A stretch of 64,000 bases of DNA from Massilia polaris. GTDB lineage: Bacteria > Pseudomonadota > Gammaproteobacteria > Burkholderiales > Burkholderiaceae_D. How positions within the stretch are numbered: the stretch's first letter is position 1; every line of letters starts with the position of its first letter. The position numbers were made by a program, and so were the translations under genes. The DNA is taken from contig NZ_JABBGG010000006.1 in the NCBI RefSeq assembly GCF_012927275.1, forward strand, positions 186,001 through 250,000. The letters are read 5' to 3'. Below the pieces are notes generated by a model. It was given only the letters and a program-made list of their open reading frames with translations. It searched no databases and had not been told where the DNA came from. Below are positions 23,498 through 30,290 of this stretch, in pieces.

Positions 23498-24457
23498 ATG
23501 CTGACACAATGCCAGACCGAAACACGCCCGCCGGTCGCCGGCATCCAGGCCGAGCTCAGCGCGGGCTTATGCGCCAGCCAGGCGAGCATCGCGCCGAAGT
23601 TCCTGTATGACCCGCTTGGCTCGAAACTGTTCGAGGCGATTTGCGAAGTGCCCGAATATTACCCGACGCGCACCGAAGCTGCCATCCTCGCCCGCCATGG
23701 CGCCGATATCGCGCGCGCAGTCGGCCCCGGAACGACCCTGATCGACCTTGGCGCCGGCAATTGCGCCAAGGCGGCCAGCCTGTTTCCGCTGCTGCATCCC
23801 GACCAGTATGTGGCCATCGACATCTCGTGGGATTTCCTGCAGGAGTCGCTGGCCCGCCTGCGCCAGCGCTTTCCGCACATTGAAATGACCGCGCTCGGGC
23901 AGGACTTCTCGGCCCGGCTCGACCTGCCGGCCAACATCAGCCCGGCGCGCCGCCTGTTTTTCTACCCGGGCTCCTCGATCGGCAATTTCACGCCCGACGA
24001 AGCGCGCTGCTTCCTGCGCCGCGCCCGCGCCCAGTGCGAAACCGACGGCGGCCTGCTGATCGGGATCGACCTGGTCAAGGATGAACAGACGCTGTCGGAT
24101 GCCTACGACGACGCGCTTGGCGTGACCGCCGCATTCAACCTGAACGTGCTGCGCCACGTGAACCAGCTGCTCGGCGCCGACTTCGACGTGCGCGGCTGGC
24201 GCCACCAGGCTTTCTTCAACCGCCTTGAGGGCCGCATCGAAATGCACCTCGAGGCGCTGCGCGACATGCTTGTCCGCTGGCCGGGCGGATCGCGCAGCTT
24301 CGCGCGCGGCGACTGCATCCACACCGAGAACAGCTACAAGTACCGCATGAGCGCGGCCATCGGCCTGCTCGAACAGTCCGGCTTCCAGGCGACCAATACC
24401 TGGGTCGATCCCGATGAATGGTTTGCCGTCATCCATGCGCGCGCCATTGGACCCTGA
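23498..24457 (+). CDS. egtD: L-histidine N(alpha)-methyltransferase EgtD
   Basis: 319-aa SAM-dependent enzyme that trimethylates histidine to hercynine, the shared precursor of ergothioneine and selenoneine. Diagnostic features: FLYDPLGSKLFEAICEVPEY and YYPTRTE (54-60), SAM site LIDLGAGNCAKA (81-92), FYPGSSIGNF, and the C-terminal HTENSYKYRMSA. Full length for the family. It overlaps egtB, so the two form an operon, and is divergent from the ABC importer operon. Confidence 0.95.
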   Translation: MLTQCQTETRPPVAGIQAELSAGLCASQASIAPKFLYDPLGSKLFEAICEVPEYYPTRTEAAILARHGADIARAVGPGTTLIDLGAGNCAKAASLFPLLHPDQYVAIDISWDFLQESLARLRQRFPHIEMTALGQDFSARLDLPANISPARRLFFYPGSSIGNFTPDEARCFLRRARAQCETDGGLLIGIDLVKDEQTLSDAYDDALGVTAAFNLNVLRHVNQLLGADFDVRGWRHQAFFNRLEGRIEMHLEALRDMLVRWPGGSRSFARGDCIHTENSYKYRMSAAIGLLEQSGFQATNTWVDPDEWFAVIHARAIGP

Positions 24458-25628
24458 GCTGCTGCGCCGCCGTTACGGCCAGGTCCGGCGCCGTTCGCTG
24501 GCGCTGGCCGAGCCGCTCTCGGACGAAGACTGCACCGTGCAGTCGATGCCGGACGCCAGCCCGGTCAAGTGGCACCTCGCGCACACCAGCTGGTTCTTCG
24601 AGACCTTCATCCTCGAACGCTTCGAAGCGGGCTTCCGGCCGTTCCATCCCGCCTTCCGCGTGCTGTTCAACTCGTATTACAACGGCATCGGCGCGAAACA
24701 CCCGCGCGCACAGCGCGGGCTGGTGACGCGCCCCGGCATGGCGGCGGTGCGCGCCTATCGCCTCGATGTCGACGCGCGCATGCTGCGCCTGCTCGATAGC
24801 CGGGCAGGGGACGCAGCGCTGGCGGAGCTGGTCACGCTCGGGCTGGAACACGAACAGCAGCACCAGGAATTGATCCTCGCCGACGTCAAGCACCTGCTGG
24901 CGCAAAACCCGCTTTATCCGGCGTATGCCGACACCCCGCCGGCCCCGGCCACGGCCGTGCCGGCCCTCTCATGGCAAGGCTTCGGCGGCGGAATTGCCGG
25001 GATCGGCTATGCGGGCGACGGCTTCTGCTTCGACAACGAGCTGCCGCGCCACCAGCAATATGTGGCGCCGTTCGCACTGGCCAGCCGGCTGGTGACAAAT
25101 GGCGAATACCTCGCCTTCGTCGACGCGGGCGGCTACCGCGACGCCGCCCTATGGCTGTCGGAAGGCTGGGACCAGGTCTGCGCCGGCACGCTCGGACACC
25201 CGCTGTACTGGCTGCGCGACCAGCACGGCGGATGGCGCGAATTCACGCTGCATGGCGACCATGCGCTGGACCCCGCGCTGCCGGTCACCCATGTGTCGCT
25301 GTATGAAGCCGACGCGTATGCGCGCTGGGCCGGCGCCCGACTGCCTACCGAAGCCGAGTGGGAGGTGGCGGCGGCATCCGGCGCCGGCGGCCTGCTCCAG
25401 ATGGCCGGCCATTGCTGGCAGTGGACCAGCAGCAGTTACGCGCCTTACCCCGGCTATGCGCAGCAAGCGGGCGCCCTCGGCGAGTACAACGGAAAATTCA
25501 TGATCAACCAGTATGTCCTGCGCGGTTCCTCGTGCGCCACGCCCGAAGGGCATGCGCGCGCCAGCTACCGCAACTTCTTCCCGGCCGGCGCGCGCTGGCA
25601 GTTCAGCGGCATCAGGCTCGCGCGATGA
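24435..25628 (+). CDS. egtB: Ergothioneine biosynthesis sulfoxide synthase EgtB
   Basis: Non-haem iron enzyme (397 aa) coupling hercynine to a thiol with O2. N-terminal DinB-like iron domain with His50 in WHLAHTSWFF and the HX3HXE set at 139-145 (HEQQHQE) gives the three-His iron site. The C-terminal FGE-sulfatase-like domain shows TNGEYLAFVDAGGY, PTEAEWE, WQWTSSSYAPYPG and LRGSSCATPEGHARASYRNF. ATG 24435 overlaps egtD by 23 bp; ATG 24414 is an alternative. There is no egtA or egtC beside it, so the thiol donor cannot be fixed from context. Paralogous to senA downstream. Confidence 0.93.
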   Translation: MRAPLDPELLRRRYGQVRRRSLALAEPLSDEDCTVQSMPDASPVKWHLAHTSWFFETFILERFEAGFRPFHPAFRVLFNSYYNGIGAKHPRAQRGLVTRPGMAAVRAYRLDVDARMLRLLDSRAGDAALAELVTLGLEHEQQHQELILADVKHLLAQNPLYPAYADTPPAPATAVPALSWQGFGGGIAGIGYAGDGFCFDNELPRHQQYVAPFALASRLVTNGEYLAFVDAGGYRDAALWLSEGWDQVCAGTLGHPLYWLRDQHGGWREFTLHGDHALDPALPVTHVSLYEADAYARWAGARLPTEAEWEVAAASGAGGLLQMAGHCWQWTSSSYAPYPGYAQQAGALGEYNGKFMINQYVLRGSSCATPEGHARASYRNFFPAGARWQFSGIRLAR

Positions 25629-29057: not shown

Positions 29058-29093
29058 CGATGCCGCTCCCTCAAAAGTCGTTACAATCCTGCC

Positions 29094-30290
29094 ATGAACC
29101 CAATCAATGCATCGTTCAGGCAGGCAAGGCCGCAACAGTTGTCCGACGCGCTGCAGTCTGCCCGAAATTATACGCTGCGGCTGTTCGATTGCCTTGCACA
29201 GGCCGGCTACGACCTGCCATCGCGCGTGCCGTACGTCGCCACCATCAATCCGCCCCTGTGGGAGCTCGGCCATATCGCCTGGTTCGCCGAGTGGTACATC
29301 CTGCGCCAGGCTGCCTCCAGTCATCCCGCCGACGCCGTTGGCAATTCGCTGCTGACGCGCGGCGATGACTGGTTCGATTCGAATACCGTGGGCCACCGCA
29401 GTCGCTGGACGCTCGACCTGCCCAATACCGGCTCGCTGAAAACGTACTGCAATGAGGTGCTCGACCGCGTGCTCGACAAGCTGTCGCGCGAAGCCAATGT
29501 GGACGCGGCGCTGTACCCCTACCGGCTGGTGCTGGCGCACGAGGACATGCATGGCGAGGCGCTGCTGCACGCGATGCAGCTGCTGGGCGTGGAGGCGCCG
29601 CCGGAGCTGGCGCGTGGCCGTAACGCTGCAGCCGCGCCGCGCGAGATCCACTATCCGGGCGGGACGATCCGGCTGGGCGGACCGCAGGATGGCGGCTTTG
29701 TGTTCGATAACGAGAAGGCGGCGCACGCCTGCTATGTACCGCCGTTCGCGATCGATGCGACCCTGGTGACGAACGACCAGTTCGCGGAGTTCGTGGCCGA
29801 TGGCGGCTACCAGCGGGCAGGGTACTGGAGCAAAGCAGGGCAGGCGTGGCTGATGGGGCAGGAGCGTTCGGCGCCGCGCTACTGGCGGCGCGATCGCGGG
29901 CGCTGGCTGGCCAGCCGGTTTGGCCAGCTCCGGACGCTCGATCCGCACGAAGCGGTGCGCCATGTGACGCTGTATGAGGCGCAGGCTTATTGCATGTGGG
30001 CGGAGCGGCGCCTGCCGGCCGAGGCGGAGTGGGAGTACGCCGCGCTGTCGGGCCAGCCGGGCTTCAGCTGGGGGCAGCTGTGGGAGTGGACGGCGTCGCC
30101 GTTCGAGCCGTATCCGGGATTCGAGGCGGGGCCTTACCGCGAGTATTCGGCGCCGTGGTTCATGACGCACCAGGTGCTGCGCGGGGCGTCGTTCGCGACC
30201 CCGTCGCGGTTCGGGTCGGCGCGCTTCCGTAATTTTTATTTGCCGGAGCGCGACGACATCTTTGCCGGGTTCCGTACCTGCGCGTACTGA
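29094..30290 (+). CDS. senA: Selenoneine synthase SenA (EgtB paralogue)
   Basis: 398-aa non-haem iron enzyme which, in the described pathway, joins the SenB selenosugar to hercynine with O2 on the way to selenoneine. EgtB-like architecture: DinB-like domain with His60 (WELGHIAWFAEW) and HX3HXE at 149-155 (HEDMHGE), then an FGE-like domain (VTNDQFAEFVADGGY; PAEAEWEYAAL; WEWTASPFEPYPGF; LRGASFATPSRFGSARFRNF). It differs from the EgtB in the same window (RRDRGRWLASRFGQLR insert), as expected for SenA. ATG 29094 has no obvious ribosome site; a TACAAT (29082-29087) is placed for a very short or absent leader. Followed by a terminator. Confidence 0.9.
   Translation: MNPINASFRQARPQQLSDALQSARNYTLRLFDCLAQAGYDLPSRVPYVATINPPLWELGHIAWFAEWYILRQAASSHPADAVGNSLLTRGDDWFDSNTVGHRSRWTLDLPNTGSLKTYCNEVLDRVLDKLSREANVDAALYPYRLVLAHEDMHGEALLHAMQLLGVEAPPELARGRNAAAAPREIHYPGGTIRLGGPQDGGFVFDNEKAAHACYVPPFAIDATLVTNDQFAEFVADGGYQRAGYWSKAGQAWLMGQERSAPRYWRRDRGRWLASRFGQLRTLDPHEAVRHVTLYEAQAYCMWAERRLPAEAEWEYAALSGQPGFSWGQLWEWTASPFEPYPGFEAGPYREYSAPWFMTHQVLRGASFATPSRFGSARFRNFYLPERDDIFAGFRTCAY

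Follow-up and report, generated by a model that had tools for sequence, protein, structure and literature searches.

A stretch of Massilia polaris DNA (64,000 nucleotides, assembly GCF_012927275.1, contig NZ_JABBGG010000006.1, positions 186,001 to 250,000; hereafter the window) raises the question of whether five neighbouring genes, egtD, egtB, selD, senB and senA, encode the synthesis of selenoneine together with an ergothioneine branch, as an initial annotation of the sequence had proposed. We are confident that the locus carries the known selenoneine (sen) pathway, set within a block of selenium and hercynine genes found in Oxalobacteraceae. This reading is built on gene identity, copy number, residues and a conserved neighbourhood, all of which are observed directly.

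Identity and conservation of the five genes

The window proteins were identified with curated NCBIfam models and their cut-offs, with Pfam models alongside. The literature used also includes PMC13188914 and PMC9312934. All five frames are intact, and each protein exceeds its NCBIfam cut-off at the place where it had been annotated:

23498-24457, plus strand: EgtD, histidine N-alpha-methyltransferase (TIGR03438, 377.7 bits, cut-off 290.9)
24414-25628, plus strand: EgtB, sulfoxide synthase, Cabther-like (TIGR03440, 542 bits, cut-off 360; structure 8qf6, 434 bits; EgtB clade)
26990-28057, minus strand: SelD, the same as SenC, selenophosphate synthetase (PRK00943, 547.8, cut-off 299; TIGR00476, 441, cut-off 125)
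28074-29057, minus strand: SenB, predicted selenosugar synthase, GTG start (TIGR04348, 413.4 bits, cut-off 300; structure 8k5u, 289.2 bits; residues)
29094-30290, plus strand: SenA, predicted selenoneine synthase (NF041186, 528.8 bits, cut-off 420; structure 8ryz, 321.6; SenA clade; iron triad)

The listed EgtB start overlaps egtD, and a later start is possible. The genes occupy 23498-30290 as annotated, but the conserved block is wider than these limits and takes in a divergent ATP-binding cassette (ABC) transporter at 20034-23368 that had been overlooked.

Relatives were taken from a family set (97 genomes of the same family), an order set (300 genomes of the same order) and the best 80 of 198 SenA-related places in named relatives, which overlap the family set and of which 61 have at least 20 kb. 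Massilia agrisoli, at 88% SenA identity, is the nearest named relative, followed by Massilia soli at 87%.

SenA and EgtB both carry the annotated HX3HXE motif, as HEDMHGE and HEQQHQE, respectively. Both SenA and SenB come from large superfamilies, and the EgtB model matches the SenA protein with 290 bits; the second EgtB-like gene might thus be an ergothioneine-type, ovothiol-type or OvsA synthase, and the GT-B protein an unrelated glycosyltransferase lying by selD through chance. The 290 bits, however, fall under the EgtB cut-off of 360, while the SenA and SenB scores exceed theirs; conversely, the window EgtB reaches 395 bits with the SenA model, under its cut-off of 420. The solved structures closest to the window SenA are SenA itself (8ryz, 321.6 bits; 8k5i, 321.4 bits), followed by OvsA (8ux5, 211.2 bits) and EgtB (4x8b, 168.7 bits). 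OvsA, the selenoxide synthase of ovoselenol (8ux5, 8u41), shares its superfamily with SenA at 211 bits, but the solved SenA structures are clearly closer at 321 bits. The first EgtB of the window is closest to the Cabther-type enzymes (8qf6, 6o6l, 6qki; 434 bits), from which no difference is seen at this level.

A tree of 73 proteins, built from the window and the retrieved family loci (family-level sampling, PDB sequences left aside), divides 52 SenA from 21 EgtB across one branch with 100/100 support, and the window SenA stands outside the EgtB clade, as the annotation of a distinct enzyme implied. The alignment shows the iron triad H60/H149/H153 kept in the window SenA. A tyrosine (Y89 in the window) is present in 21/21 EgtB, and its place is taken by phenylalanine (F94) in 52/52 SenA. 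Assignment of the window SenA to EgtB or OvsA is rejected by the model cut-offs, the order of PDB scores and the separate clade; by its sequence, the protein is a member of the selenoneine synthase family.

The GT-B transferase next to selD was correctly annotated as SenB: it exceeds the TIGR04348 cut-off, its closest solved structures are SenB (8k5u, 289.2 bits; 8fbx, 270.6 bits), and the catalytic residues are kept. Twelve positions named for Variovorax paradoxus SenB in the portions of PMC10891094 drawn on here were mapped by motif and spacing; Q131, V157, L209 and T214 lie outside the twelve. Eleven positions agree with the V. paradoxus enzyme: N20, T23, H58, R61, T83, T85, D86, R155, K158, E231 and E239. 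The kept catalytic residues, together with the linkage of senB to senA in most relatives examined, also argue against a chance neighbourhood of unrelated enzymes, which we regard as scarcely credible.

The sen pathway is common and unremarkable in this group. Scores above cut-off are found for SenB in 42/97, SenA in 49/97 and the TIGR04553 substrate-binding protein (SBP) of the transporter in 49/97 genomes of the family set, and for SenB in 87/300 and SenA in 65/300 genomes of the order set. The order transporter, egtD, egtB, (yihY), selD, senB, senA, DEAD-box helicase recurs in many relatives, the egt and sen halves being parted by insertions. Of the 61 named loci of about 20 kb, 59 contain SelD and 54 contain SenB; EgtB is seen in at least 29, EgtD in at least 27 and the SBP in at least 17, these last three being lower bounds set by the fixed locus length. 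Some loci depart from this arrangement. G040 (L041) has the transporter, egtD, egtB and selD, with SenB and SenA not above cut-off, and offers a natural comparison for the contribution of the sen genes. G004 (L032) has a diverged SenB (44%, H at the 235-equivalent) and a SenA-like protein (40%) with egtD between them, and its SelD is on another contig. In two genomes of one genus, G056 (L034, L050) and G079 (L035, L054), SenA lies away from the SenB-SelD pair and keeps the iron triad.

Hercynine and selenophosphate supply

In the pathway proposed for this locus, EgtD would make hercynine as one pool for EgtB and SenA. SelD/SenC would turn selenide and ATP into selenophosphate, from which SenB would transfer selenium to a UDP-sugar, yielding a 1-selenosugar; the iron enzyme SenA would then combine the selenosugar with hercynine into a selenoxide that decays to selenoneine. 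The SelD branch would be supplied with selenite by the divergent PhnCDE-type transporter. The initial core reading, with SenA, SenB, SenC, EgtD and EgtB working on one hercynine pool, is upheld by the SenA clade, the SenB residues and a single-copy EgtD. The best-known counterpart is the sen cluster of V. paradoxus DSM 30034, reportedly described by Kayrouz et al. in 2022. The reactions given here are taken from published homologues (PMC9814287, and the parts used of PMC10891094 and PMC10903977), and by the same sources the V. paradoxus cluster has SenA, SenB, SelD (SenC), the hercynine acceptor and the SenB catalytic residues in common with the window. The window differs in having N at position 235 of SenB; in its own arrangement, SenB-SelD is divergent from SenA, and EgtD, EgtB and the TIGR04553 transporter are linked.

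Two observations weigh against the pathway as drawn. The asparagine at SenB position 235 (residue N234 of the window protein, codon 28356-28358) replaces the histidine of the published EGGAHV motif, giving EGGANV. This asparagine is the rule in the group, being found in 41/42 family-set SenBs (the window counted) and 70/71 named relatives. In the portions of PMC10891094 drawn on, H235 of V. paradoxus SenB contacts the sugar at C-4', and enzymes mutated there retain partial activity; since they do, H235 does not appear to be an essential feature, and the sugar contact and residual activity suggest that asparagine may affect sugar preference rather than function. The second observation concerns the last step of the ergothioneine branch. 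The best EgtE match in the window's genome scores 62 bits (cut-off 400), EgtE being the only lyase searched for, and EgtE matches are also below cut-off in 14/14 control genomes. Of the annotated ergothioneine capability, then, EgtD and EgtB stand above their cut-offs, but no EgtE-type lyase does so for the final step. Because no EgtE exceeds the cut-off, the EgtB branch may end by another route.

Profile matches were counted at E <= 1e-60 for SelD and SelB and at E <= 0.01 for SelA. At these thresholds the window's genome has one SelD and no match to SelB or SelA; it also has one SelU and one EgtD, the sole PF10017 match. Exactly one SelD match is likewise found in each of the 84 SelD-bearing genomes among the 97 of the family set. 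The annotation had spoken of dedicated enzymes, which does not hold for SenC: as the only SelD match in a genome that also has SelU, it is probably the general SelD, common to selenoneine and tRNA selenouridine synthesis. With one SelD and SelU present, and SelA and SelB lacking, selenophosphate from this one enzyme should go into tRNA 2-selenouridine as well.

The divergent transporter and candidate promoters

The ABC transporter at 20034-23368 is divergent from egtD and recurs beside egtD or selD in many relatives. Its genes are as follows:

20034..20825, minus strand: PhnE-like ABC permease 2 (TIGR01097, 248.8 bits, cut-off 216.7)
20822..21859, minus strand: PhnE-like ABC permease 1 (TIGR01097, 186.9 bits, below the cut-off of 216.7; PF00528 above cut-off)
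21655..22467, minus strand: PhnC-like ABC ATPase (TIGR02315, 176.3 bits, below the cut-off of 266.1; PF00005 above cut-off)
22481..23368, minus strand: SBP, 'putative selenate' (TIGR04553, 398.4 bits, cut-off 250; pocket residues as in PhnD1)

The real start of permease 1 is possibly downstream of 21859. The TIGR04553 model is itself a hypothetical equivalog, named 'putative selenate ABC transporter substrate-binding protein'.

We consider it rather probable that the linked transporter is a selenium importer, and both the TIGR04553 match and genomic context favour this. SelU is matched in all 49 SBP genomes of the family set (in the case of G087 by two sub-cut-off fragments) and SelD in 47/49, the exceptions, G009 and G087, being 80 and 68% complete. 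Across the 97 genomes the SBP is associated with SelD (p 0.007) and SelU (p 1e-4), kinship ignored, and shows no association with SelB (p 0.83) or SenB (p 0.15). In genomes with both genes, the SBP start is no more than 5 kb from selD in 14/22 SenB-less and 5/25 SenB-bearing cases; a 20 kb limit takes in 16/22 and 19/25, respectively. The 14 SenB-less genomes with the closer linkage span six genus codes.

Other results count against selenium import on behalf of this pathway. The closest solved relatives of the window SBP are the phosphite-binding PtxB and PhnD. PhnD1 ligand-site residues, taken from the parts used of PMC10284923 (cf. those of PMC5700983), were mapped through an alignment to 7s6g with the offset set by hand, and all 11 compared residues of the window SBP (D45, Y78, T99, S151, S152, T153, S154, H183, N201, D230 and Y231) are identical to those of PhnD1, which binds phosphite and also the tetrahedral phosphate. 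These residues are invariant in 14 SBPs, namely that of the window and 13 of 16 others listed. Moreover, 37 of the 84 SelD-bearing genomes have no SBP, and within these 84 the SBP shows no link to the presence of SenB (p 0.66; SBP and SenB in 25, SBP only in 22, SenB only in 17, neither in 20). A transporter tied to selenoneine alone is rejected by this last comparison.

The pathway could be read correctly and the transporter still import phosphite or phosphate instead of a selenium oxyanion, as the 11/11 matching site residues and the PtxB and PhnD relatives would suggest. The window SBP belongs to the same fold family as PhnD1 and PtxB (7s6g, 5lq5, 5o2j; PMC10284923 and PMC5700983, in the parts used) and agrees with them at every ligand-site residue compared, including the capping tyrosine, but differs in its TIGR04553 membership and in being linked either with selD and selU or with egt/sen genes. 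Proximity to selD in SenB-less genomes and the near-constant company of SelU and SelD speak against phosphite or phosphate as the cargo, and phosphate appears to have an importer of its own, to judge by a PstC match elsewhere in the window; we hold such a cargo to be possible but doubtful. If the transporter does import selenium, selenite is the preferred candidate over selenate by analogy with the phosphite-type pocket, because the capping tyrosine fits pyramidal oxyanions, phosphite among them, and selenite, unlike selenate, is pyramidal. A predicted structure of the SBP was of mediocre confidence (mean predicted local distance difference test score, pLDDT, 70) and was not used.

Two short elements near the divergent gene starts are candidate promoter parts:

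23442..23463, no strand assigned: intergenic element of 22 bases, SBP gene to egtD, candidate divergent promoter (conservation, shuffles)
29082..29087, plus strand: TACAAT, candidate -10 hexamer for senA (six bases upstream of its ATG)

The 22-base element has one match in the window and none in 100 shuffles; among 7 relatives compared, 2 carry an identical copy and 5 one that resembles it by eye. It is a possible divergent promoter, and the transporter and egt/sen genes may be co-regulated. The divergent genes senB and senA start 36 bases from each other. The hexamer TACAAT precedes the senA ATG by six bases in the window and by six or seven in 5/5 relatives compared, a spacing that suggests a leaderless senA transcript. 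A promoter consensus scan did not recover this hexamer, and promoter and terminator scanning of the window did no better than on shuffles.

A frame of 119 amino acids at 26567-26926 (minus strand), between yihY and selD, presumably encodes a protein resembling DUF1428. Apart from the TIGR04553 transporter, the window also encodes an exopolyphosphatase-like protein (16559-18061), a polyphosphate kinase (47781-49865) and a PstC-like phosphate permease (51273-52289).

SenA relatives without iron ligands

Ten family-set SenA from SenB-less loci were set apart before their residues were inspected: those of nine genomes without SenB and the second SenA copy of G058. H153 is lost in all ten (C in 5, R in 4, Q in 1), with H149 also lost in three and H60 also in four. 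Of the other 42 family-set SenA, all with the full triad, 40 are SenB-linked (egtD separates the two genes in G004), and for 2 the genome carries SenB at another site. The order set provided 67 further SenA. All 44 beside SenB have an intact triad, and among 18 with SenB elsewhere (in G262 a partial match below cut-off) there are 15 intact, 2 with H153R, which are second SenA copies in G353 and G382, and 1 truncated. Five more, all intact, were first scored as SenB-less; on recheck three adjoin SenB, in G153 and G197 (SenB cut by the contig end in both) and in G239 (diverged SenB, 37% identity). In G331 the roughly 100 bases left on the contig beside SenA are too short to judge SenB, and in G128 no SenB is found in the 983 bases left. 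All 87 SenB-linked SenA (40 + 47) thus have an intact iron triad. SenB is present in 71/80 named loci, all intact, and one further locus, at a contig edge, is also intact; of the 8 without SenB, 6 have H149Y and H153R, and 2 have an intact triad with N380 changed.

The association between loss of SenB and loss of the triad is strong in the family, with exceptions in the order set (the 15 intact with SenB elsewhere) and the named set (2). Fisher tests that ignore kinship give p 1e-7 for the named loci and 6e-8 for the family and order sets before the SenB recheck. A kinship-corrected pair test is not significant (p 0.25), with 3 of 5 independent pairs in the expected direction, 0 against and 2 showing no difference. 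Origin of 12 iron-less SenA from a single old paralogue was rejected, one clade being incompatible with the data (approximately unbiased test, p-AU 9.6e-5), and the starred branches of the tree force at least 4 changes for the loss of iron ligands. Iron-less SenA, with one to three histidines lost, are found at loci L022-L031, L098 and L124, and at L166, L175, L180, L203, L204 and L205, mostly where SenB is missing from the genome or locus; Noviherbaspirillum autotrophicum is one bearer of such a protein. A Pfam search for a stand-in for SenB found no glycosyltransferase among 20 frames of ten SenB-less SenA loci; 8/20 frames had no match, and some of the 20 may not be genes. A literature search of titles and abstracts found no report of the iron-less SenA association.

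The ratio of non-synonymous to synonymous substitution (dN/dS) is 0.09-0.33 in 15 iron-less pairs above 60% identity, compared with 0.08-0.23 in five intact pairs, many dS values being near saturation. The iron-less proteins are apparently full-length and maintained under purifying selection, and SenA may have a second, iron-independent role in lineages that lack SenB and the iron ligands but keep the gene under such selection. Nine of the ten iron-less family-set proteins exceed the NF041186 cut-off (448-481 against 420), a warning that the SenA model labels iron-less relatives 'selenoneine synthase'.

If these relatives reflect decay of the pathway in the family, the window genes too might be a relic whose sequence is intact but which is silent or productless in this strain. 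The window's own SenA triad and SenB residues are intact, however, and the block is kept in close relatives, where dN/dS is low (0.085 for the nearest pair, kin of M. agrisoli and M. soli), and a relic is in our judgement highly improbable. With the pathway read as functional, M. polaris becomes one more well-supported host for a described route of selenium into a small molecule. The useful additions are a candidate dedicated bacterial selenium importer and SenC as the sole SelD, probably shared with tRNA modification.

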